Assembly: GCA_024711325.1 (NCBI GenBank)
Contig: JANJTC010000002.1
Coordinates: forward strand, 186,001 to 250,000
Length of the DNA: 64,000 bases
Origin: Bacteriovoracaceae bacterium
Lineage (GTDB): Bacteria; Bdellovibrionota; Bacteriovoracia; Bacteriovoracales; Bacteriovoracaceae
Reading direction: 5' to 3'
Shown here piece after piece: positions 30,963-59,768 of the stretch; position 1 is the first letter of the stretch, and every line of letters begins with the position of its first letter. The notes beneath the pieces are model-generated. The model did no database searches. It worked only from the letters and a program-made list of their open reading frames with translations, and was not told the DNA's origin. The translations under genes were made by a program, and so were the position numbers.

Positions 30963-30978
30963 TATGACGCAAGTCATG
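30963..30978 (+). promoter_or_regulatory. CRP/FNR-like site TATGA-CGCAAG-TCATG
   Basis: Inverted repeat; centre 30970.5; -10-like CATAAT at 31000-31005 would give about -41.5 spacing. Confidence 0.55.
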
Positions 30979-31038
30979 TTGAACTGGACTTTTGGGCCCC
31001 ATAATAATGCAATTATTTTCTTGGCCGGAAGAGTTTAT

Positions 31039-32637
31039 TTGAAAATTCAAACAAAAATTTTACTCCCTTTAATCCTTATTTTTGGGCTGATGTCTGGACT
31101 GGTTATTTTACTTAACTATTCTAATCAACAAACTTTTGTAGAGCGCTTCATCGAAGAGCAAGCATTCCAAACAGCTTCACAGTATTTTGACAGTGTGAAC
31201 GCCATGATGATTACCGGCACGATGGAGAATCGTGAAATTTTACGAAATAAGCTTTTGGAAAATAAAGACATTGAAGACATTAAAATAGTACGTGGCGATA
31301 AAGTTAAGGATATGTATGGAGATGGCTTTAGTTATGAAAGCACCAGGGATGAGCTCGATGAAAGAGGACTCAAAGGAGAAGAGATAAAGATCATTCAGAG
31401 CTTCAAAGGAAAAAGAACTTTGACAGTTTTACTGCCAGTGCTTGCAAGTTCAAATTATCGAGGCACCAATTGTTTAGAGTGCCATGAAGTGCCGGAAGGA
31501 ACAGTCCTGGGAGCAACCAGAATTACATATTCATTAAATCGACTTGATCAGGAAGTGAAAGAAAATAGCATATACGTGGGCAAAATAATGATAGCTTTAT
31601 TCATTGTGGCCCTCTTAATTGTCCTGGGTGTTTTAAGGATAATTGCAGTGAGAAGAGTGAAGCTTATTCAGCAGGATATTGAGCTCATTTCCCAGAATAT
31701 GGATCTAACAAAAACCCTTCGTCGAAATAATTCTAAGGATGAAATTGCCAAAATGGCCAATGCGTTCGATGAGATGTTAAAGACGATCAGGGAGAGCCTA
31801 TTTCAAGTAAAGAATTCTACTTCAGAAATTGTCATGGGAACTGAAGAGATTTCCAACATCACCTCATTAACCGTTTCAGATATTATTCAACAAAAAGAAG
31901 AGATAAATAGTGTTGGTCAGACCATTCGCAAGATGAGCGCATCTTCTCAGAACGTGGCCGATAGTACTCATAAGTCGCAAAGCTTTACTAATAACGTAGA
32001 AGGAGAGGTCGCAGATGGTGCTAATAAGGCCTTCTCCGCTCAACAAAAGATCAATAACCTTTACCTCCAGATTGAACAAGTCTCGGCGATTGCAGAGAAA
32101 CTGGAAATTGAAACCCAGAGAATCGCTGAGTCAGTAAAAGTCGTGGATGATATCACAATGAAAACCCGCTTACTTTCATTCAATGCCTCAGTTGAGGCAG
32201 GAAGAGCAGGTCAGGCAGGACTTGGCTTCTCAGTGGTTGCCAATGAAATAGGCGAACTTGCCCAGCAGACTAAAGAATCCAATCTTGAAATTGGAGAATG
32301 TACCGACCAATTAAAAAAACTCATGCACGAAGCTGTCATCGTTATAAGAGAAACCAAGACGCTTGCCACCGAAGGTCGAAATGAAGTCAACACTTCTTAT
32401 GAAGCATTTAAGAATGTTGCCTTTGAGATGTCTAAGCTAAAAGATGTCATGATCAACATCGCCGGTAGTACCAAAGAACAAAGTGAAGCAACCCGTGAGG
32501 TCGAAGATAATATTCAGTCCATCATGAATCTATCAAATAAAACGACTGTTGCAGCACACAGAATAGGTGAGGTTAGTTCTGATTTTAGTCGCCTGGCCAA
32601 TGAGTTGGATAAGCTCATTAATCAGTTTAAAATTTGA
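31039..32637 (+). CDS. Methyl-accepting chemotaxis protein with periplasmic c-heme (CxxCH) sensor domain
   Basis: TM, NCLECHEVPEGTVLGATRITYS, HAMP, signalling tip ETQRIAESVKVVDDITMKTRLLSFNASVEAGRAGQAGLGFSVVANEI; TTG 31039 (KIQTKI) preferred start. Confidence 0.88.
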   Translation: MKIQTKILLPLILIFGLMSGLVILLNYSNQQTFVERFIEEQAFQTASQYFDSVNAMMITGTMENREILRNKLLENKDIEDIKIVRGDKVKDMYGDGFSYESTRDELDERGLKGEEIKIIQSFKGKRTLTVLLPVLASSNYRGTNCLECHEVPEGTVLGATRITYSLNRLDQEVKENSIYVGKIMIALFIVALLIVLGVLRIIAVRRVKLIQQDIELISQNMDLTKTLRRNNSKDEIAKMANAFDEMLKTIRESLFQVKNSTSEIVMGTEEISNITSLTVSDIIQQKEEINSVGQTIRKMSASSQNVADSTHKSQSFTNNVEGEVADGANKAFSAQQKINNLYLQIEQVSAIAEKLEIETQRIAESVKVVDDITMKTRLLSFNASVEAGRAGQAGLGFSVVANEIGELAQQTKESNLEIGECTDQLKKLMHEAVIVIRETKTLATEGRNEVNTSYEAFKNVAFEMSKLKDVMINIAGSTKEQSEATREVEDNIQSIMNLSNKTTVAAHRIGEVSSDFSRLANELDKLINQFKI

Positions 32638-41431: not shown

Positions 41432-41712
41432 TTCTTTCCTCGCTACTAATAGTATTAAAGGAAGGAGAGACTTAACGCTTAAAGCTTTCTTAAGATTAAG
41501 TACTTGATTGAGAACATTCATCATAGTAGATCTCAAGTTAAGGGGCGAAGTTCAGGACTTACACTTAACTGGGGAGCACTAAACCTTTGTTAAGAACTCT
41601 GCTAATAAAGCGCGTCTTTTACAATTCGTATTCCCAAGGCGAACTTTATAAGATGAAGCTTTTTTAATTTAAGAAATCTTATAATTACTGATGAAAATCA
41701 ATGAAAGTTTGT

Positions 41713-41728
41713 TATGATGTGTTCCATA
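41713..41728. promoter_or_regulatory. Degenerate CRP/FNR-like inverted repeat TATGA-TGTGTT-CCATA
   Basis: GTTATG-N8-CATAAC dyad 41711-41730. Confidence 0.35.
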
Positions 41729-41744
41729 ACATTGGAATACGGCC

Positions 41745-42101
41745 ATGTCTTTTGCCATTAGGAAGAATCCATTCTGTAAGGAGATAACGGGGACTGTTAT
41801 GTCCTTTGTCGCTTTATTATGCATTCTGACTAGTTTCAATCTCTCTTATCAGAAAAATAGTTTTTCTCTTTCGGAGAGTGGCGTATACACGCTGGAAGAG
41901 ACTCCTGAAACAGATACTGTATATTCCATTGATGATTCTCTTGACGAGAGTTTTTTTACTGCTTTTTTTCTTTCATCAATACTCATTCATGCCAATAAAT
42001 CTGCATTAATTCTTCTTAGCTATAATTCTTTTTATATCCAAAGAATAATGCCACTTCACCTGTTAGATATACCGCCTCCCACATCTTCACGAACTGTGTA
42101 A
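41745..42101 (+). CDS. Small membrane-associated protein, unknown, upstream of DAB operon
   Basis: Hydrophobic segments; C-terminal HLLDIPPPTSS. Confidence 0.5.
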   Translation: MSFAIRKNPFCKEITGTVMSFVALLCILTSFNLSYQKNSFSLSESGVYTLEETPETDTVYSIDDSLDESFFTAFFLSSILIHANKSALILLSYNSFYIQRIMPLHLLDIPPPTSSRTV

Positions 42102-48577: not shown

Positions 48578-48593
48578 TATGATTGTAGTCATA
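48578..48593. promoter_or_regulatory. CRP/FNR-like site TATGA-TTGTAG-TCATA upstream of ompW
   Basis: Perfect inverted repeat extended to TTATGA...TCATAA. Confidence 0.6.
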
Positions 48594-48610
48594 AGGATTT
48601 AAAATGGACT

Positions 48611-48629
48611 GGCCGGAACTAGTCCGGCC
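48611..48629 (-). terminator. Hairpin after the 48637..49353 gene
   Basis: GGCCGGA-ACTAG-TCCGGCC. Confidence 0.5.
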
Positions 48630-48636
48630 GGATGAA

Positions 48637-49353
48637 TTACTGATTGATGATGGTATTAGCAGATTTGCCTTCAATAGATCTTACATATATCAATACATTT
48701 TTATTTGATAGAGAACGTAGTTTAAATTTTACTGGGATTTGAATTTTTTCATTTCCTTCATTACAAACGGATGAAACTTTTTTCATGATAGGTAATATAG
48801 AGATAGTGTCTTTTTTGTTCGAGAGATAGTCGACTCGATCAAAAACCAGACAGTCACTGGGAACTTTAGCGTGCAATACAGCATCCCCACTTAGTCCACC
48901 AGTAAAGCCAAGTTCTATGTATTCAACGATAGGGTAAAGATGATCGTCTACGCTGGTTGAACTTGAAACTGCCACATTAAGTTTTTCTTTTTGTTCATAC
49001 GGGGATTTCTCGTTAACGATTATTTCATAATCTCCCCCCTGCAAGTTACCTACAGTAATTTCTTCTTTAAATGGAATGATCATCGGCTCACATAGATCCG
49101 ACTTTGCATCTTCTCTTTGGAGAGCTGTTACAGTAATGAGAATTTTGTCATTTTTATGGACAACATCGACCTTATTAGTGATGTAACAAGGACTCGGGAA
49201 CTGGCCGGTTACAATTACTTCCACGTTATCATTATTATCAAAGCCACTAGGTACAAACAGGTGATTGACCGGTGAAATGATCACTTTTGGTTCACTGGCG
49301 TGAACTAAAGTAGAAAAAGCAAGCACTGCGAAAACCATTGTTAAATGTTTCAT
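48637..49353 (-). CDS. Secreted protein of unknown family, paralog of 59076..59768
   Basis: Signal peptide; shared blocks HLFVPSGFDNNDNVEVIVTGQFPSPCY, IPFKEEITVGNLQGGDYEIIVN, SVDDHLY, LPIMKKVSSVC. Confidence 0.8.
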   Translation of the reverse strand: MKHLTMVFAVLAFSTLVHASEPKVIISPVNHLFVPSGFDNNDNVEVIVTGQFPSPCYITNKVDVVHKNDKILITVTALQREDAKSDLCEPMIIPFKEEITVGNLQGGDYEIIVNEKSPYEQKEKLNVAVSSSTSVDDHLYPIVEYIELGFTGGLSGDAVLHAKVPSDCLVFDRVDYLSNKKDTISILPIMKKVSSVCNEGNEKIQIPVKFKLRSLSNKNVLIYVRSIEGKSANTIINQ

Positions 49354-49430
49354 TTAATCCTCCCTGGATTTAAGTGAGTTGAATATATCCACTGGAATAT
49401 GCTAAATATCTGATTGAAGCTCTCTTAAAG

Positions 49431-49446
49431 CATGATATTTGTCATA
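49431..49446. promoter_or_regulatory. CRP/FNR-like site CATGA-TATTTG-TCATA upstream of the secreted paralog gene
   Basis: Inverted repeat about 85 bp upstream of the start codon. Confidence 0.5.
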
Positions 49447-49592
49447 AAGCATATATGATGTATTTCTGGCTGGAGTAGGAGTCGAAACAATCACTTTTAT
49501 TAAGTGTCTCCTGTGTATGCGAAGCTAGCGGATCAATGAGTTAAGCTTCCCAATAAACGGAATTACTGAGATAGTAGGCCAAAAGGATAAGT

Positions 49593-49820
49593 ATGGAAGA
49601 CGGTCAGTTTCTAGGCCCTGAAGATAAAAAGAAAATGGAAGCTCTTAAAAAAGAACTTTCGGATTTGAAGAAAGAGCATAAGGCCTTCGCTGCCCGTAAA
49701 AAAGGGCTCACACCCGAAGATAGAGAGAGTTGGCGCATCAATTCTCAAAGAACAAATCAAATCTATATTGAGATTAAAGATTTAAGATTTAAAAACGTAC
49801 TTGAGGCCGGGAAAGGATAA
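49593..49820 (+). CDS. Small charged coiled-coil protein, unknown
   Basis: KKMEALKKELSDLKKEHKAFAARKKGLTPEDRESW. Confidence 0.6.
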   Translation: MEDGQFLGPEDKKKMEALKKELSDLKKEHKAFAARKKGLTPEDRESWRINSQRTNQIYIEIKDLRFKNVLEAGKG

Positions 49821-49826
49821 TATTCT

Positions 49827-50228
49827 ATGAGTAAGATCCCATTCGTCCTTTTGTCCCTGTTAATTTCTTCATTTGCACAGGCCAATGCAGTTAGTGCTCT
49901 TAAAAGCTATATCCCTCTTTATGATCACACAGGAATTAATGACATTGGCCAGGAATGCTCCATAGATTTCTATCACCGACCAGGTGGCAAGGTATTAGTA
50001 GAACTTTTGATGCCTAAGCTCATTACGTTTTTGATTGATCCGTCCATGAGTTTTATCGCAAGAGATAGCTACTTTTCTGCTTCCCAACCGGCCTTTACAG
50101 AGAATAATGGTATGGTGACTTTGAGTCTAATCTTCGAAGGGGCAAGTGTTAAAGTTGAAAGACAATTTTGCCTTGAAGAGCGTTGCTGGTCTTCTGGAAA
50201 AGTTTGCCAGTTGGAAGACTGGAGATAA
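49827..50228 (+). CDS. Secreted protein of unknown function
   Basis: Signal peptide MSKIPFVLLSLLISSFAQANA; four Cys. Confidence 0.55.
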   Translation: MSKIPFVLLSLLISSFAQANAVSALKSYIPLYDHTGINDIGQECSIDFYHRPGGKVLVELLMPKLITFLIDPSMSFIARDSYFSASQPAFTENNGMVTLSLIFEGASVKVERQFCLEERCWSSGKVCQLEDWR

Positions 50229-50240
50229 GTAGAATCATTT

Positions 50241-51134
50241 ATGGGTGCTCATCATCATCACCATGCTCACGAAGTTAAATCACAAAGTGATTCTGCCATC
50301 CTATCTGCTTTCTTTTTAAATGCAGGATTTGCTGTTATTGAGTTTATTGGTGGTCATTACACAAATAGTACGGCCATTAAGTCTGATGCCATCCATGATC
50401 TAGGGGATAGCCTGACACTTCTTTTTTCATATTTCGCTGAAAAAATGAGTCATAAGGAAGAAGACGAAATTTTTACCTTTGGTTATCGAAGATTCTCAGT
50501 CTTGGCCGCCTTGATCAATGGCCTGGTTTTATTGGGTGGAACGACTTACGTCATCTATGAAGCCGTTCAGCGGATGTATAAACCAGAGCCGATTATGGCC
50601 TCAGGAATGATATTTTTTGCTTTATTGGGTATAGGAGTTAATGGACTTGCCGCATTTAAATTAAAGAAAAGTGGTAGTCTCAATAGCAAGATGATCACGC
50701 TCCATCTCCTGGAAGATATTTTAGGCTGGGTCGCAGTGTTAGTTGTAAGTATCGTACTGATGTTTAAACCTTGGTATATTCTTGACTCAATTCTTTCAAT
50801 TTTAATTTCGTTGATAGTTATAAGAGGCGTTTACAAGAACTTCATTAGTATCGGGTCCATTCTGCTTCAGAAGTTTCCGCTCGGGCTCGAAAAGAATCGA
50901 ATTAAAGAAAAAATACTAAGCTATGATTGCGTTCAGGACGTTCATCTGGTTCGTGGATGGTCCATTGATGAATCGAAATTTTATTTGACTCTTCATGTAC
51001 GAGTCTCGCTGGAGACTACCATGGGGCAGCTTGATTCTATCCGAAAGGAGATCGAAAAGTTTCTCAGGCAAGAGAACGTTCTTTATTCTACGATTCAATT
51101 TGAGGGGGAGGAGTGTAAGGAAGAAATACACTAA
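50241..51134 (+). CDS. Cation diffusion facilitator metal exporter
   Basis: His-rich N-terminus MGAHHHHHAHE; KSDAIHDLGDSLTLLFSYFAEK; HLLEDILGW; C-terminal cytoplasmic domain. Confidence 0.94.
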   Translation: MGAHHHHHAHEVKSQSDSAILSAFFLNAGFAVIEFIGGHYTNSTAIKSDAIHDLGDSLTLLFSYFAEKMSHKEEDEIFTFGYRRFSVLAALINGLVLLGGTTYVIYEAVQRMYKPEPIMASGMIFFALLGIGVNGLAAFKLKKSGSLNSKMITLHLLEDILGWVAVLVVSIVLMFKPWYILDSILSILISLIVIRGVYKNFISIGSILLQKFPLGLEKNRIKEKILSYDCVQDVHLVRGWSIDESKFYLTLHVRVSLETTMGQLDSIRKEIEKFLRQENVLYSTIQFEGEECKEEIH

Positions 51135-52959
51135 AGACCGAACCCCGCCCAGGTTCACTTTCAACTTTGATACTTCCGTGATGAGCTTCTACAATGAGTT
51201 GGGAAATATACAGGCCAAGACCAAAGCCGCCGAAGTTGTATTCTGAAACGGCCCTTCCGAATTTCTCAAATATACGTTCCTGATCTTTACTAAAAATACC
51301 AATCCCTTGATCTTTTATTATCAAGTTCGCTCCATTCTCCACACAGCTCACTGATAGCTCAATCGGCCGGTGTGCACCGAACTTAAGGGCATTTGTTAAG
51401 AGATTAGTGATAAGCTTTTCCAGTTTCTTGCTGTCCCAAAGACCTTGACACTTGTCTTCCAGATGCAGCTCTAATTTTGAACCACTACTTTGAATCATGC
51501 TGCCCAGGCCTTGACTTACATTTTTTACGATTTCGATTAGATCCGTGTTTTGTAACTCTAATTGAACACTCACTTTATTCTCATGGGCAATATAGAGTAA
51601 ATCTTCAATTAAAGACTGTAGTCTTTTGGCCTGGGAATCAGCGCTAAGGAAGGATTTAATTGTCTCTTCTTGGGTAGATGGTTTTTTTGTCTGACCTCGA
51701 GCCGCGCGGAGCATAATTTGAAGTTGCAATATTAAAACCGTCAGGGGGGTTCTTAATTCATGAGCCGCAAGTGCAATAAAGGTTTCACGTGCCCTTACCG
51801 CTTCTTCGGCCGCTTGGCGTGCTTTTTTCTCTTCGATTAATAGATTGTCTCTTTCGATCTCAGCTCGGTGTCTTTTCCGAATATTAATAATCAAAGCAAT
51901 ATTCAAAACAATCAGAACTAAGACAATAATCAGTGTAGATATAATTTCCGAACGATATTTGGTAAAGATGCTTTCTGGATAGTTGATCAGCTCAGCCTGA
52001 TGAGGGATCCTCTCTGTTGGGATATTAAAGCGACTTAACTGATTGTAGTCCAAAACAAAGCGTGATGGACTGACCTTAACGATTGGGGGATTTTCCCCAT
52101 TTAATGCCCTGATAGCGAGCTCTGCGGCCACTTGCCCTTGTATGCGCCCATCCAGAAGCCATCCTCCCACAATACCAAATCCAAGTTGAATTTCCCACAG
52201 GCCATAGGCCGGAACTCTTGAGTATTTGTTGATGAACCTAATGGCTTGCCGTTGACTAAATTTTTTGCCTTCACCATCAATAATGAAATTCGTATTAAGT
52301 AGGAGGTCTCCCTCTCCCAAGAGAGAAACTTCTTTTTGGACCTCTTCTATTGGAAGATTATGCAAAACTTTAAATTGCACTTTTTCTTTCCAGCGTGGGA
52401 ATAAAGCTTGGAGTTCTTTTAGAAGCTCCATACTTATTTCTGTTGAATCAAGAACCACAGCGATCCGTTTGGTTTCTGGATGCAGCTCTAACATGGAATC
52501 AATTGTGCGAACATAATCGACTGCTTCCACTACACCTGAAATTCGTGCTTGGTCGTCCACCATTGAATCTTGAAAGTTATTAACTCCGGCAAAAACCAGG
52601 TAGGATTTTGGAAAAAGTTCTTCCCGATAATTTCGGGCAAAATCGAAGGCCACGTTATCGGTTGTAATGACAATATCAAATGATCTCTTTTGATACTTAT
52701 AGCGCAGAAGAGTGAGGAAAACTTGAAGGTTTTCAGCTTCTGGATAATTTTTCCAATCCATGTACTCAACAGCTACTTCAAGGTCAGGATATTTTCTCTC
52801 AAATGTTTCCTGAATGCCTTTCATCTCTGAGGCCGTCCAGGCATATCCGTGCGAATAAGAATGCAGAACAAGGATTTCTGGTCTGATGGTTGTTTGTGCC
52901 CAGGCCCCGGAGAGCAAGCAGAATAAGAGGCCAGCAGTTACAACAAACAGTACTTTCAT
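51088..52959 (-). CDS. Hybrid sensor: ABC-type periplasmic-binding domain fused to histidine kinase
   Basis: Signal peptide, ILVLHSYSHGYAWTASEMKGIQETFE, TM, ALAAHELRTPLTVLILQLQIML, GIGIFSKDQERIFEKFGR, GLGLYISQLIVEAHHGSI. Confidence 0.9.
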   Translation of the reverse strand: MKVLFVVTAGLLFCLLSGAWAQTTIRPEILVLHSYSHGYAWTASEMKGIQETFERKYPDLEVAVEYMDWKNYPEAENLQVFLTLLRYKYQKRSFDIVITTDNVAFDFARNYREELFPKSYLVFAGVNNFQDSMVDDQARISGVVEAVDYVRTIDSMLELHPETKRIAVVLDSTEISMELLKELQALFPRWKEKVQFKVLHNLPIEEVQKEVSLLGEGDLLLNTNFIIDGEGKKFSQRQAIRFINKYSRVPAYGLWEIQLGFGIVGGWLLDGRIQGQVAAELAIRALNGENPPIVKVSPSRFVLDYNQLSRFNIPTERIPHQAELINYPESIFTKYRSEIISTLIIVLVLIVLNIALIINIRKRHRAEIERDNLLIEEKKARQAAEEAVRARETFIALAAHELRTPLTVLILQLQIMLRAARGQTKKPSTQEETIKSFLSADSQAKRLQSLIEDLLYIAHENKVSVQLELQNTDLIEIVKNVSQGLGSMIQSSGSKLELHLEDKCQGLWDSKKLEKLITNLLTNALKFGAHRPIELSVSCVENGANLIIKDQGIGIFSKDQERIFEKFGRAVSEYNFGGFGLGLYISQLIVEAHHGSIKVESEPGRGSVFSVFLPYTPPPQIES

Positions 52960-53052
52960 GAACTTGTTTCTTTACATTACAATTAGTGAACCGATTTATT
53001 CTTCTATAGTTCAGTTTGATTTGTCACGGCATATGCCCTTAATTTTTTAATT

Positions 53053-53068
53053 TGGCACTGTTCCTGCT
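53053..53068 (+). promoter_or_regulatory. Sigma-54-type promoter TGGCAC-TGTTC-CTGCT
   Basis: GG-N10-GC spacing kept; one mismatch to TGGCAC-N5-TTGCT. Confidence 0.55.
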
Positions 53069-53093
53069 GAAAATGAACTAACAGGAGGTGGAT

Positions 53094-53411
53094 ATGAGTC
53101 CTGGTTATCAAGGGCCTTTAGATGATTCTCTTAATCAAAAACACAGTCGTCAGTATGACGCACCTGCAGGGAATAGCTCGGTTTCTGACCGGAACTTAAA
53201 GCGTTATATTCTGGAGCAATTAGATAAACACGTTGAGATCGATTCATCTGACCTGGAAATCAAAGTGAAAGATTGTTTTGTTTTTTTAACTGGCTCAGTG
53301 GAGAGTGAACAAACACGCGCCACCATTAAGTCCCTGGTTGAAGGAATAGACGGTGTTGAAGATGTTGTGAGCTACATTGAAATAAAAGATCGCTTAGATA
53401 ATTCTTTTTGA
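53094..53411 (+). CDS. BON-domain protein (second copy)
   Basis: LKRYILEQLDKHVEIDSSDLEIKVKDCFVFLTGSVESEQTRATIKSLVEGIDGVEDVVSYI; RBS AGGAGG. Confidence 0.85.
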   Translation: MSPGYQGPLDDSLNQKHSRQYDAPAGNSSVSDRNLKRYILEQLDKHVEIDSSDLEIKVKDCFVFLTGSVESEQTRATIKSLVEGIDGVEDVVSYIEIKDRLDNSF

Positions 53412-53493
53412 GCACCTCGGAATAAAAATTGAGAAAGAATAGAGGACCCAAAACCATCCACTCGTAATAGAACTTTTGCGGGTGGATAAAATA

Positions 53494-54462
53494 ATGAAGC
53501 AACTTAAAGCGGAATTTCTGTTTTTGTTTCTGCTTATTTCCTGCCAGGGACCCTATTCAGCTCTTGGGCCGGCGGGGAGTGCTGCCCGAACAATCTCGGG
53601 TATGTTTTGGTGGTTATGTGGAGCAGGCTTAGCGATATGGTTGCTATTTGTGGCCTTAGAGCTTTATGCCATTTTAGTTAAACCTGGGCCTCATGATTTA
53701 AAAAAAACGAGGCTGTTTGTCATTGGTGGTGGGGTGATCTTTCCTGTAATCATCATAACCATTTCGATCTATTTTAGCCTTGCTCCCTTGCCTGATCTTG
53801 TAAAGATGGCCCCCAAAGGAAGCGTTGTAGTAAAAGTCAGCGGACTGCAATGGTGGTGGAGGGTCAAATATCCACTTGCTAATGATCAAGAAATTGAAGT
53901 CGCCAATGAAATCTGGTTGCCGGTGAATGAGCCAGTGCAGTTTCTTCTATCGAGTGAAGATGTCATTCATTCATTCTGGGTTCCGTCCTTGGCCGGCAAG
54001 ATTGACATGATTCCCGGCCAGACGAATCATCTAAGTTTCACTCCAACTAAAACCGGACATTATCTGGGATCTTGTGCAGAATTTTGCGGCACTTCACATG
54101 CCCTGATGCGACTGGATGTGAAAGTTGTCGAAAGAAACGTTTTTGATGAATGGTTAAAAAAGCAAGAACGTTCCGTGAAGAAAACTGGTTCTCCTGGTGA
54201 AACGGCCTTTGTTTCAAATGGTTGTATTTCCTGTCATACCGTAAGAGGAATTAGTTCTCTGGGCAAAATTGGACCTGATCTTACTCATGTTGGAAGCCGT
54301 AGAAGAATCGGTTCTGGCATTCTAAATAACGATGCAAATCAAATTCATCGCTGGATTGATGAGGTTGATCTGATTAAACCCGAAGCCAAAATGCCTTCCT
54401 TTAAAAGCCTTCCCATAGAAGAGCGAAAGGCCTTAGCAAAATGGCTTGAAGGATTGAAATGA
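53494..54462 (+). CDS. coxB: Cytochrome c oxidase subunit II with fused cytochrome c domain (caa3-type)
   Basis: Lipobox LISCQG; CuA site CAEFCGTSHALM; CISCH heme motif. Confidence 0.93.
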   Translation: MKQLKAEFLFLFLLISCQGPYSALGPAGSAARTISGMFWWLCGAGLAIWLLFVALELYAILVKPGPHDLKKTRLFVIGGGVIFPVIIITISIYFSLAPLPDLVKMAPKGSVVVKVSGLQWWWRVKYPLANDQEIEVANEIWLPVNEPVQFLLSSEDVIHSFWVPSLAGKIDMIPGQTNHLSFTPTKTGHYLGSCAEFCGTSHALMRLDVKVVERNVFDEWLKKQERSVKKTGSPGETAFVSNGCISCHTVRGISSLGKIGPDLTHVGSRRRIGSGILNNDANQIHRWIDEVDLIKPEAKMPSFKSLPIEERKALAKWLEGLK

Positions 54463-56972
54463 AAGAAGATGAGATCGATGAAATTCGAGAAGGACAGGAG
54501 AGAAGGCTTCTTAAGGCCTGGAAAGTACCAGAAGGTTGGAGGTATTGGTCTGAGGTCAACAATTCAGAAGTAGGTATGTGGTATACACTTACGTCTCTTG
54601 GATTTTTTTTCTTTGCAGGTGTTTTAGCGCTATTAATACGAATTCAATTAGCAGTTCCTGATAATGATTTTTTGACGGCCGATCAGTATAATCAAATCTT
54701 CACCATGCATGGAACCGTGATGATGTTCCTTTTTGCTATTCCCATTTTTGAGGCCATTTCCATCCTCTTATTACCTCAGATGCTGGGGGCAAGGGATCTT
54801 CCGTTTCCTCGCTTGTCTGCCTATGGCTATTGGTGTTTTCTTCTGGGTGGGATTTTTGTCTGTGGTTCACTTTTTTTTGGGGCAGCACCTAAAGGAGGAT
54901 GGTTTATGTATCCTCCACTCACGTCAAATTATCAACCTGGCGTGGGAGCGGATATCTGGCTTTTAGGTTTAACTTTCATTGAAATTGCATCAATTGCCGC
55001 GGCCGTTGAACTTATAGTCGGCATTTTAAAATGCCGACCACCTGGTATGAGAATTAACCTTATGCCTATTTATGCCTGGTATATTTTGGTTGTTGCCATC
55101 ATGATCTTATTTGCTTTCCCCCCCCTTATTGCAGGTGATATTTTACTTGAGATGGAGCGTGCTTTTGACTGGCCTTTTTTTGATGAAAGGCGAGGAGGCA
55201 ATCCACTCTTATGGCAGCATTTGTTCTGGATCTTCGGTCACCCGGAAGTCTACATCATCTTCCTACCATCCATCGCCCTTCTGGCCACGATTATTCCTAC
55301 TTTTTCACGGGTCCATCTAGTGGGCCATAGTTGGGTCGTTTTGTCTGCTGTAGGGACAGGCTTTTTAAGCTTTGGATTATGGGTTCACCATATGTTTACG
55401 ACAGGACTTCCTGGTGTTTCACTCGGTATTTTTTCTGCTGCCTCTCAAGCGGTTGCCATTCCAACAGGTGTCCAACTTTTTTGTTTTCTCGCGACACTTC
55501 TGACTGGGCATTTTATAAAATCAGTTCCTATGTTATTTGCACTGGGTGGCATGGCGACTTTTGTCATTGGCGGATTAACGGGAGTGATGGTGGCGATAGC
55601 TCCTTTTGATTTTCAGGCGCATGACACTTTCTTTGTAGTAGGACACCTTCATTATGTATTGATTGGTGGAAGTGTCTTTCCGATTCTGGCCGGCATTTAT
55701 TATTATGCTCCAATTGTTAGTGGCAAAAAACTTTCAGAACGTCTTGGTAGGCTTTGTTTTTGGCTCGTGATTATTGGTTTTAATGTCACCTTTTTTCCAA
55801 TGCACGCCAGTGGCCTCTTAGGAATGCCCCGGCGTGTGTATACCTATCCAGCGGAAATGGGAATAGGGGGATTAAATCTCATCTCAACTATCGGGGCCTT
55901 TATTTTGGGAGCAGGTTTTCTGGTTTTACTTTGGGATATTTTAAGGCCCAAGTCCAAGCAGCCCTATTCAGAAAGAAATCCTTGGGGAGCTGGCACGATG
56001 GAATGGGCGATGAAGATTCCTGACCGTATGTGGGGTGTTCGTTCTATCCCTCTTATTAAGACTCGTTATCCACTTTGGGACCAGCCAAATTTTATAAAAG
56101 ATATTGATCACGGAAATTTCTATCTGCCTGATGCAGAGGAAGAGATGCGGGAAACATTGATCACCAGCACACTTGATGCTCATCCCATCCAGTGCATGAG
56201 AGTTCCCGGTCCGACTTTTGTTACCCATCTGGCAGCATTATTCTCCGGAGGGTTTTTTATTTTTGCCACTTATCACTGGTGGATTCCCACTATTATCTCC
56301 GGGATTCTCGCGGTTATATTTATTGTTTACTGGTTGTGGACTGGAACGGCCTGGATCCCTGAAAAAAATGAGAAAAACGTAGGCATGGGAGTGAGCCTTC
56401 CTATTTATAAATCCGGACCGCTGGCCGCTGGATGGTGGGCCATGTTTATAACCATGCTGGCAGACATGACCGCCTTCATTTCATTAATATTTGGATATTT
56501 CTTCTATTGGACTGTTCAAGAAAACTTTCCTCCCCAAAAAATTGCCGGGCCGGAGTTTCTCTGGCCAGTGACAGGAGCTGGCCTGCTCTTATTCTCATGG
56601 ATACTGACTAAGTTATCCTGGAAGTGGAACCGGGAAAATAAAACCAAACGCTTTTATTCATCTTTACTGACTGCAAGCTTAATGTCGTTAGCGGGAGGGA
56701 TCGCTTTTCTGGCAGGACCATGGGTTCATAAGATGGATCCAACCGTACATGTTTATCAGGCCATTGTCTGGGTACTCGTTATTTGGACGGCATTACATGC
56801 TGTCCTTGGATCGCTAATGCAAGTGTATTGTCTTGCAAGGAGAATGGCAGGAAGAATGACAGCGCTCTATGATGCTGACATAACGAACGTTTCTCTCTAT
56901 GCATGCTTCATGGCCGTAACGGGAATAATCACTGCACTGGTTATTTCCGGTTTTCCGGCAATAGGAAGGTGA
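54459..56972 (+). CDS. coxA: Cytochrome c oxidase subunit I fused to subunit III
   Basis: FTMHGTVMMFLF, FGHPEVYIIFLPS, HHMFTTGLPG, FVVGHLHYVL; C-terminal subunit III-like helices. Confidence 0.93.
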   Translation: MKEDEIDEIREGQERRLLKAWKVPEGWRYWSEVNNSEVGMWYTLTSLGFFFFAGVLALLIRIQLAVPDNDFLTADQYNQIFTMHGTVMMFLFAIPIFEAISILLLPQMLGARDLPFPRLSAYGYWCFLLGGIFVCGSLFFGAAPKGGWFMYPPLTSNYQPGVGADIWLLGLTFIEIASIAAAVELIVGILKCRPPGMRINLMPIYAWYILVVAIMILFAFPPLIAGDILLEMERAFDWPFFDERRGGNPLLWQHLFWIFGHPEVYIIFLPSIALLATIIPTFSRVHLVGHSWVVLSAVGTGFLSFGLWVHHMFTTGLPGVSLGIFSAASQAVAIPTGVQLFCFLATLLTGHFIKSVPMLFALGGMATFVIGGLTGVMVAIAPFDFQAHDTFFVVGHLHYVLIGGSVFPILAGIYYYAPIVSGKKLSERLGRLCFWLVIIGFNVTFFPMHASGLLGMPRRVYTYPAEMGIGGLNLISTIGAFILGAGFLVLLWDILRPKSKQPYSERNPWGAGTMEWAMKIPDRMWGVRSIPLIKTRYPLWDQPNFIKDIDHGNFYLPDAEEEMRETLITSTLDAHPIQCMRVPGPTFVTHLAALFSGGFFIFATYHWWIPTIISGILAVIFIVYWLWTGTAWIPEKNEKNVGMGVSLPIYKSGPLAAGWWAMFITMLADMTAFISLIFGYFFYWTVQENFPPQKIAGPEFLWPVTGAGLLLFSWILTKLSWKWNRENKTKRFYSSLLTASLMSLAGGIAFLAGPWVHKMDPTVHVYQAIVWVLVIWTALHAVLGSLMQVYCLARRMAGRMTALYDADITNVSLYACFMAVTGIITALVISGFPAIGR

Positions 56973-56973
56973 G

Positions 56974-57330
56974 ATGATAACAAGACATTCATTATGGTTA
57001 TTGGCCCTCTCGCCAGTGGTATGGTCATTGCATTTTACAGCTGTTTATATTACGGCGGCAATTTGGTGTGCTAAATTTCCGGGCACAGACCTTCTCAAGG
57101 TAAGACATTTAACGGCCATTTATACTGTCATCGCTTTAGCTGTCGTTTCAATGCAAGTTTTTTATGGTTATCGCAAGCATAGAAGTAGCGATACTCACGC
57201 TCATCATAAAGATTCCCTGGAAGGAAGAGAACGTTTCTTAGGACTGACTCAGCTATTAATTTCCGGCCTCAGTTTTCTTGCCATTACTTACAATGCTTAT
57301 GCGGTTTATGTTTTCAGGAGCTGTGAATGA
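56974..57330 (+). CDS. Small membrane protein in oxidase cluster
   Basis: Three hydrophobic segments; within a tightly overlapping operon. Confidence 0.6.
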   Translation: MITRHSLWLLALSPVVWSLHFTAVYITAAIWCAKFPGTDLLKVRHLTAIYTVIALAVVSMQVFYGYRKHRSSDTHAHHKDSLEGRERFLGLTQLLISGLSFLAITYNAYAVYVFRSCE

Positions 57331-57911
57331 CACGGAACTTCAGTCTGGGCTTCGGATTTTTCTTTTTACTATTAGCATGGGCAGGCCCATTGGCCCAACT
57401 AGCGAAGTCCGCTTTTTATGGCCATATGATCATGCATATGTTGGTTGTGGCCGTGGCCGCCCCTTTACTGGCCTTCGGTATAGTTGATAGTAAGTATGAT
57501 CCTACCGGAAATTTTCCTCTTCTGTTTGCACCTATTCCTGCGGCAGTAGGGGAACTCATTATTGTTTGGGCCTGGCATGCGCCAAAACTTCATCTTTTTG
57601 CTCGTCATACTTTCTGGGGACTTTTACTGGAGCAAGGGATGTTTTTATTGGCAGGAGTTTGGGTCTGGCTTTCTTCATTTGGAAACAAGGCCGCAGGTGT
57701 GATCGGGCTACTGTTGACCTCAATGCATATGACGTTTCTAGGGGCGTTACTGAGTCTTTCATCCCGACCACTCTATATTCACCATGACCTCAATGATCAG
57801 CATATTGGTGGAGTGATCATGCTGATTGTGGGAGGCATATCATATTTAACCGGCGGACTTTGGCTCACACTGAAACTACTTAAGGAAAAAAAATATGAAG
57901 AATTGGCTTAG
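57327..57911 (+). CDS. CtaG-family (caa3-type) cytochrome oxidase assembly protein
   Basis: HMIMHMLVVAVAAPLLAFG-like block; WAWHAPKLHLFARHTFWGLLLEQGMFLLAGVWVW. Confidence 0.82.
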   Translation: MTRNFSLGFGFFFLLLAWAGPLAQLAKSAFYGHMIMHMLVVAVAAPLLAFGIVDSKYDPTGNFPLLFAPIPAAVGELIIVWAWHAPKLHLFARHTFWGLLLEQGMFLLAGVWVWLSSFGNKAAGVIGLLLTSMHMTFLGALLSLSSRPLYIHHDLNDQHIGGVIMLIVGGISYLTGGLWLTLKLLKEKKYEELA

Positions 57912-58962
57912 GCCTATTATCTTATTTCTTATAAGTTTGGGAACTCTCGGTGCGGTGGTAATGATTTCCGGTTTGATTCCTATAAGTGCCAGTTCTGGCC
58001 ATTGGCCTATCACCGCCTGGATTCTGGAATTTTCTATGAAGCGTTCGGTTTCTACTTATACTTTGACTAAAGAATCGCCTCATCTTGAAGATCAAAGGAT
58101 GATTCAAAGGGGAGCAGGACATTATGAAATAGGCTGTAAGCAATGTCATGGAGGCGTGGAAAAAACAAACATCATCGGTCTCCATACCACGCCTAAAATT
58201 CCTCATTTGCCACCGGTTATCAAAGAATGGAAGCCGGAAGAATTATTTCGTATAGTAAAACATGGAGTTAAATTTACTGGGATGCCGGCATGGCCATCTC
58301 TGCAAAGGGACGATGAAGTCTGGTCAATGGTAGCTTTTCTTTTGCAATTTCCTAAGCTCGATTGGAAAAGTTATCAGAAACTTGTACATGCTCCTGGTTC
58401 AGAAAAAATTGAACATGATGTTCTAAGAAGTTGTAGTCATTGCCATGGTCTTGATGGAAATGGCCGGCAAACCGGTGCATTTCCTCTTCTGTCAGGGCAG
58501 AATGCTGAATATCTGGAGAACTCTCTTAAGGCCTATGCTAAAGGTGAACGTCATAGCGGGACGATGAAAATTGTTACTTATAATTTGGAATCTGAGATGC
58601 TTAAAGAGCTGGCCTTGCATTACAGTAAGCAAAAAAGACGACCGCTCGTTAAGCAAAGCGTAGATCAGTCCGCAATAGAAGAAGGATCACGGCTGGCAAA
58701 AATGGGTATTCCTGAGCAGCATGTGGCCTCATGTATAGGGTGTCATGGACCAGATGAAAGTGGCTTAACTCGTAAACCATACTTCCCCGATCTTAGAGGG
58801 CAGCCAGCTGATTACATCACAACTCAGTTAGATCTATTTTTGAAGGGAAAAAGAGGGGGGTCAGAGCACGTTCAACTTATGCACAAAGCAGTTCATACAC
58901 TCACTGAGCTTCAAATAAAAAACCTGGCCCTGTATTTTGAATCCTTGGAATTTAAAAATTAG
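57895..58962 (+). CDS. Triheme c-type cytochrome, membrane anchored
   Basis: Three CxxCH motifs: CKQCH, CSHCH, CIGCH. Confidence 0.92.
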   Translation: MKNWLRPIILFLISLGTLGAVVMISGLIPISASSGHWPITAWILEFSMKRSVSTYTLTKESPHLEDQRMIQRGAGHYEIGCKQCHGGVEKTNIIGLHTTPKIPHLPPVIKEWKPEELFRIVKHGVKFTGMPAWPSLQRDDEVWSMVAFLLQFPKLDWKSYQKLVHAPGSEKIEHDVLRSCSHCHGLDGNGRQTGAFPLLSGQNAEYLENSLKAYAKGERHSGTMKIVTYNLESEMLKELALHYSKQKRRPLVKQSVDQSAIEEGSRLAKMGIPEQHVASCIGCHGPDESGLTRKPYFPDLRGQPADYITTQLDLFLKGKRGGSEHVQLMHKAVHTLTELQIKNLALYFESLEFKN

Positions 58963-58985
58963 TGAATTATCCCGCCTTGCGACAA

Positions 58986-59001
58986 TATGACAATGATCAT
59001 A
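58986..59001. promoter_or_regulatory. CRP/FNR-like site TATGA-CAATGA-TCATA upstream of the second secreted paralog
   Basis: Perfect inverted repeat about 75 bp before the start. Confidence 0.6.
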
Positions 59002-59075
59002 CTCTTAACTAAGAAGCCTCAGTTCCAGCTCTAACTGCTTATTATAAATTCTGGGCATTAACCTGGAGGTTATTT

Positions 59076-59768
59076 ATGAATAAGTACACTGTCCTGTTTT
59101 CAATGCTTCTTTCTCAAATTGCATTTGCGGCCCCAAGCATAGGTCCTGCACCAGTGAAACACTTATATGTGCCACAAGGCTTCGATAGCAATGACACTGT
59201 TGAAGTTGTCGTTACCGGGAATTTTCCTAATCCTTGTTATTCTAGAAATACAGTTGTGGTTGATGTCATTGATGATCAGATTAATGTAGAAGTCAGTGCT
59301 CTTAATTCAGAGAAGATGATTTCTTGCCCTGATATTATCGTTCCATTTAAAGAAGTTGTTTCTGTTGGGAATCTTCAGGGCGGAGATTATCAGATTACTG
59401 TGAATGGAGTGTTGAAAGATAAGTTGGTTGTAACTGAAGCCGATTCTAATTCAGTCGATGATCATCTCTATGCTGCCATTGATAATATTGAAAAGAAAGG
59501 CCCCAGCGACTATGTTCTCCATGGCTGGCGCTATAGCCCGTGTATCGAATTGGATCGAATTGATGTCCTCAGTAACGGTAAGGATACTCTTTCGGTTCTT
59601 CCTGTCATGAAACAAGTCTCTAACTTTTGTCCAATGAAAATGATTCCGGTCTCGTATCCTGTAAAATTGAATTTTGGAGATTTAAAGTCTCAAGATCCTT
59701 TGATTTATATCAGAACTATGGATGGGAAATCGTTTAACAGTATTATCCATTTGGGTGATCGTAGATGA
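59076..59768 (+). CDS. Secreted protein of unknown family, paralog of 48637..49353
   Basis: Signal peptide; HLYVPQGFDSNDTVEVVVTGNFPNPCY, VPFKEVVSVGNLQGGDYQITVN, SVDDHLY. Confidence 0.8.
   Translation: MNKYTVLFSMLLSQIAFAAPSIGPAPVKHLYVPQGFDSNDTVEVVVTGNFPNPCYSRNTVVVDVIDDQINVEVSALNSEKMISCPDIIVPFKEVVSVGNLQGGDYQITVNGVLKDKLVVTEADSNSVDDHLYAAIDNIEKKGPSDYVLHGWRYSPCIELDRIDVLSNGKDTLSVLPVMKQVSNFCPMKMIPVSYPVKLNFGDLKSQDPLIYIRTMDGKSFNSIIHLGDRR

Follow-up and report, generated by a model that had tools for sequence, protein, structure and literature searches.

Two perfect copies of an AT-rich palindrome, TATGA-N6-TCATA, stand in promoter position within one stretch of the genome of an uncultured, Bdellovibrio-like member of the Bacteriovoracaceae, which raises the question of whether the dyad marks a common regulon and, if so, which protein would read it. 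The window, as we call the whole 64,000-nucleotide stretch of DNA that was analysed, had been described in an initial annotation as carrying perfect copies at 48578-48593 and 58986-59001, one-mismatch copies at 49431 and 30963 and a weaker copy at 41713, and all five were found again in the sequence, the last of them also with one mismatch. Three more one-mismatch copies had not been listed, two of them intragenic (10549 and 44482) and one overlapping a start codon (13194); at up to one mismatch the window thus holds eight dyads against 3.5 expected, a count as high as that in 3 of 100 shuffles. The promoter placement proposed for three of the sites was borne out, with 48578 lying before ompW, 49431 before a gene for a secreted protein (paralog 1) and 58986 before its relative (paralog 2), at core-to-start distances of 114 bp (to the ATG), 91 bp and 88 bp, respectively. 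The corresponding features are as follows.

48578..48593, minus strand: predicted FNR-type operator TATGACTACAATCATA, upstream of ompW; the core also precedes the ompW orthologues L065, L066 and L067
47857..48477, minus strand: ompW, OmpW family beta-barrel, 206 aa (PF03922, E=2.8e-43)
49431..49446, minus strand: predicted FNR-type operator TATGACAAATATCATG, in front of the gene for secreted paralog 1; -10-like hexamer given below (dyad search, ortholog comparison)
48637..49353, minus strand: secreted paralog 1, 238 aa, matching no Pfam or NCBIfam family
58986..59001, plus strand: predicted FNR-type operator TATGACAATGATCATA, in front of the gene for secreted paralog 2 (dyad search, ortholog comparison)
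59076..59768, plus strand: secreted paralog 2, 230 aa, predicted all-beta, without a solved structural match

The secreted paralogs, of about 230 residues, have conserved cysteines and a GFDxNDxVE motif, and homologues occur in several families of the phylum. Pfam and NCBIfam searches assigned neither paralog 1 nor paralog 2 to a family. The structure predicted for the secreted paralogs (window 48637-49353, 59076-59768) is all-beta with a pLDDT of 84, and a fold search of the PDB with paralog 2 returned no significant match and no function, the weak hits being antibody-like beta-sandwiches with a TM-score below 0.2. The 98%-identical match to the paralog comes from a MAG, Bacteriovoracaceae bacterium UBA4096.

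To establish which motif is at issue, we counted matches in the window's own genome (3.55 Mb in 7 contigs, examined by pattern searches and selected stretches). The claim that TATGA-N6-TCATA defines a regulon did not survive this count: the genome has 8 perfect copies, 5 of which fall in coding sequence, as compared with 6 copies for the reversed control, so the string alone is not special, and for lack of a genome-wide excess it was rejected as the motif. The initial annotation put chance copies at about 0.15 per 64 kb, in agreement with the 0.14 counted over the whole genome; at that rate, at least two perfect copies in one 64 kb window have a Poisson probability of 0.009, a value not corrected for their selection by eye. 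In each of the three good window sites a pyrimidine follows the first TGA and a purine precedes TCA, and of the eight perfect genome copies only 48578 and 58986 fit TATGAY-N4-RTCATA, with Y as the sixth base and R as the eleventh. When up to one mismatch was allowed, this refined pattern was found at 46 sites in the own genome, as compared with 24 for the reversed control. Fourteen of the 46 are intergenic and in promoter position, which is well above the window's 6.5% non-coding share (P = 8e-7), while the control had 5 of 24 intergenic sites, a difference that is not significant (Fisher p = 0.52, calculated with the first 15 control sites, 3 of them intergenic). The case for enrichment rests on the 6.5% baseline and on the relatives, not on the own-genome reversed control; site contexts were taken from a simple home-made gene caller, and most of the genomes compared are probably MAGs. 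The pattern MTGAYNNNNRTCAK showed a large excess (161 vs 33), yet 60 of 70 copies were inside genes, so this excess reflects codon usage and was rejected as proof of a regulon. Among 62 half-sites chosen by the core alone, the outer base was A in 31, C in 22, G in 7 and T in 2. The conserved element is [A/C]TGAY-N4-RTCA[T/G], that is, TGAY-N4-RTCA flanked by A or C. The window, its motif sites and both of the fnr genes described below share one 547 kb contig (G000:C7), which holds 17 of the 46 one-mismatch sites on 15% of the genome, above its share.

Conservation at orthologous promoters, a test suggested by the initial annotation, was then examined in relatives, and the core was retained. 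Within the genus, TGAY-N4-RTCA was present no more than 250 bp upstream in 20 of 21 paralog and ompW orthologue promoters, which are not fully independent of one another, while the shuffles gave a mean of 0.51 and a maximum of 4 (400 shuffles) and the reversed control gave 1. In two relatives of paralog 2 with 73-74% protein identity (L023 and L024), the counterparts of the 58986 operator, TATGATCCTTATCATA and TATGATTAACATCATA, are exact matches to TATGAY-N4-RTCATA at about −88, within diverged flanks, and more distant relatives have C outside the core (CCTGAY). The core was not found in eight orthologue promoters from other families, but L237, which carries a paralog homologue and also belongs to a different family, has a perfect site that ends up 36 bp ahead of this gene and is one of the intergenic sites counted next. 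Across the relatives, with the promoters already studied left out, 20 of 37 perfect TATGAY-N4-RTCATA sites were intergenic (13/26 in the genus and 7/11 in other families) against an expected 6.5% or so (P = 1e-14).

The position of the dyads relative to the promoter elements was also constrained. In 18 orthologue promoters, −10-like hexamers clustered 49-51 bp from the dyad centre, and none of 2000 shuffles was as good. In the window, the hexamers are TAAAAT for ompW (48534-48529, 51 bp from the dyad centre), TATATT for paralog 1 (49387-49382, 51 bp) and TATAAA for paralog 2 (59043-59048, 49 bp). Taking the hexamer start as −12 places the dyad centre near −61.5 to −63.5, and about −61.5 is the class I position for CRP/FNR activators.

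The two remaining sites of the initial proposal, before a chemoreceptor gene and the DAB operon, fared less well, and the features involved are these.

30963..30978, plus strand: probable operator TATGACGCAAGTCATG, upstream of the chemoreceptor gene, with a weaker case (dyad search, relatives)
31033..32637, plus strand: methyl-accepting chemotaxis protein whose sensor part contains a CxxCH motif (PF00015; GTG start at 31033 inferred from orthologue N-termini)
41688..41701, plus strand: candidate operator CTGATGAAAATCAA, before the 41746 ORF and the DAB operon (fits the core; replaces 41713)

The dyad at 30963 lies within the longest ORF of the chemoreceptor gene, yet 5' of its probable start near 31033, and a CATAAT at 31000 would place it at class II (−41.5) spacing. 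This site held in part, being present as TATGACCAAAGTCATA in the 98%-identical twin genome (G011) and absent in two others (G008 and G009). The 41713 copy, in contrast, is not a site, because it does not follow the Y/R rule and falls on TATGAT, which looks like a −10 element; it was dropped as an operator, and CTGAT-GAAA-ATCAA, 24 bp upstream (41688), fits the core instead. The orthologous position is a perfect TATGATTCAGGTCATA in L159, and the site is absent in L160; class I spacing of the 41688 candidate was not seen from any start. Between this candidate and the DAB operon the window has a short open frame of about 118 codons (41746-42101), and L159 has a similar-looking open stretch in the same place. 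The loss of the chemoreceptor site in two relatives and of the DAB site in one, together with the spacing of the latter, leaves a substantial, slightly less than even chance that only the three sites at ompW and the paralogs are real, which would be compatible with the main explanation; the perfect DAB counterpart in L159 and the better match of the chemoreceptor site in the twin genome weigh against so narrow a set.

To identify the protein that might bind these sites, we searched the own genome for HTH_Crp_2 proteins and found only two, FnrA and FnrB, which are 65% identical to each other and are encoded on the same contig, 50-160 kb beyond the dyads. Both scored above the cut-off for PF00027 (cNMP-type effector domain) and PF13545 (Crp-type HTH), and both have an N-terminal CxxC-x8-C and a further cysteine (VCF/ICF) aligned to Cys122 of Escherichia coli FNR (VCE), a four-cysteine pattern that recurs in 14 sequences of the genus. 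With the NCBIfam Fnr model they scored 76 and 87 bits, far below its cut-off of 228, although this was still the best-scoring model. Their recognition helix, N-E-T-V/I-I-R, retains the Glu and the Arg, has Ile in place of Ser and does not match E-x-x-S-R. The specificity positions are occupied by Asn and Ile in FnrA and FnrB, by Val and Ser in FNR and by Arg and Gly in CRP, and the specificities of CRP and FNR are known to swap when these two positions of the recognition helix are exchanged. The helix departs from FNR and CRP at these two positions, and the operator departs from theirs at the matching base. Furthermore, 12 of the 14 four-cysteine fnr genes of the genus (twin genome counted) are themselves preceded by the core, between −60 and −71 relative to the start, which ties the FNR-like protein to the motif. 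Judged from sequence, FnrA, FnrB or both are almost certainly what regulates these promoters.

The motif, its conservation, promoter position and spacing, the existence of the two regulators and the sites preceding fnr genes were all computed, and the dyads are very probably operators of the FNR-type transcription factors FnrA and/or FnrB. The CRP/FNR-type regulator with an altered half-site that the initial annotation had envisaged is supported by the orthologous conservation, the promoter enrichment, the FNR-like proteins and the copies before fnr genes. As to DNA binding, the cluster, the oxygen signal, the sign of regulation and how FnrA and FnrB divide their labour, we infer a scheme in which the E and R conserved in the recognition helix would let an FNR dimer read TGAY-N4-RTCA, while Asn and Ile at the specificity positions would make the base flanking the core preferably A or C, in place of the T preferred by FNR and the G preferred by CRP. 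When oxygen is low, the four conserved cysteines would carry a [4Fe-4S] cluster that keeps the protein an active dimer, and from about −61.5 (class I) this dimer would turn on ompW and the secreted paralogs; it may act at the regulator's own promoter as well.

Other intergenic sites in the own genome lie before a hemA-like gene (an assignment by sequence reading), cox3, two usp genes, moeA and the genes for thymidine phosphorylase and a metal P-type ATPase, and also before a hemerythrin-PAS gene (L135) and the gene for a small FNR-like beta-roll protein. A usp orthologue and a metal P-type ATPase were found again as targets in relatives. These positions suggest that hemA, usp, cox3, the P-type ATPase, moeA and fnr are likely targets, resembling a classical FNR regulon. 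In two other families, NirK-like multicopper oxidase-cytochrome c fusions (L265 and L267) have a perfect TATGAY-N4-RTCATA upstream; a site at a norB-like gene (L214) lies in coding sequence and was rejected. The NirK-like fusions, as nitrogen-oxide related targets in relatives, along with the hemerythrin-PAS gene, would be in agreement with operators of another CRP/FNR-family protein, such as an NO-sensing DNR/NnrR-like or a cAMP-binding CRP-like regulator, instead of an iron-sulfur FNR, although we consider this unlikely, given that the only two HTH_Crp_2 proteins found in the own genome both have FNR-like cysteines and that the G typical of CRP is scarce among the outer bases (7/62). A reading in which an AT-rich palindrome recurs by chance and marks no regulon would suit the lack of over-representation of the original string (8 vs 6, with 5/8 coding) and the mostly coding MTGAYNNNNRTCAK copies, but is very improbable, being largely refuted by the orthologous promoters (20/21 vs a shuffle mean of 0.5), the intergenic bias in relatives and the motif before fnr genes, and opposed by the constant spacing to the −10 element.

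Returning to FnrA and FnrB as the regulators, we compared them with known systems. They resemble E. coli FNR (24% identity) in the effector and Crp-type HTH domains, the three N-terminal cysteines, the cysteine at the Cys122 position and the E and R of the helix, and differ from it in having CxxC-x8-C instead of CxxC-x5-C and N-E-T-V/I-I-R instead of V-E-T-I-S-R. The FNR operator TTGAT-N4-ATCAA is not matched here, since the outer base is T in 2 of the 62 half-sites, for which the core was used to pick sites. The fold and the TGA-N6-TCA core are shared with E. coli CRP, which, unlike the FnrA/FnrB system, has Arg-Gly at the specificity positions, a TGTGA operator and no cluster cysteines; no copy of the CRP operator TGTGA-N6-TCACA was found in the window, and few half-sites have the outer G. 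DNR/NnrR, the heme-based NO sensor, is without the cluster cysteines that FnrA and FnrB have. In its targets the system resembles alphaproteobacterial FnrL/FNR: the FnrL regulon of Rhodobacter sphaeroides includes ompW, hemA, uspA, fnrL, cox genes and rdxBHIS (PMC2908626). The core TGAY-N4-RTCA is the same there, as are the targets ompW, hemA, uspA, fnrL, the cox genes and rdxBHIS, which has a P-type ATPase among its products. T almost invariably flanks the core in that regulon (TTGAC-N4-ATCAA at ompW; PMC2908626), and A or C does so here. The secreted paralogs, thymidine phosphorylase and the hemerythrin-PAS genes are targets in which the present system differs.

In most of the genus genomes looked at, the four-cysteine fnr genes are directly followed by a gene for a small relative of the FNR beta-roll, 117-123 residues long, that has no cysteine cluster, long dimer helix or HTH. 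The own contig has four such copies, one of them behind a TATGAC-N4-GTCAT site. The examples are listed below.

L031 1118-1471, minus strand: small beta-roll protein
L032 1054-1416, minus strand: small beta-roll protein
L135 1005-1373, minus strand: small beta-roll protein
G000:C7:279472-279798, minus strand: small beta-roll protein

Tentatively, and with a good deal of doubt, these neighbours might point to a Bacteriovoracaceae FNR subfamily that has a DNA specificity distinct from other FNRs and is served by a dedicated beta-roll partner, possibly an anti-FNR or a co-sensor.

A search of open-access papers returned no description of an FNR regulon for Bacteriovoracaceae and nothing relevant on the exact motif. 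Taken together, our comparisons point to a system of a familiar type, probable FNR control at low oxygen, in which operator and helix are both altered, in a group for which we did not find it described. If this is true, operator and helix would have changed in step, the discriminating base in the one and, in the other, the same two residues by which FNR and CRP are told apart, and the sites would name genes that are switched at low oxygen in the relatives of these predators.
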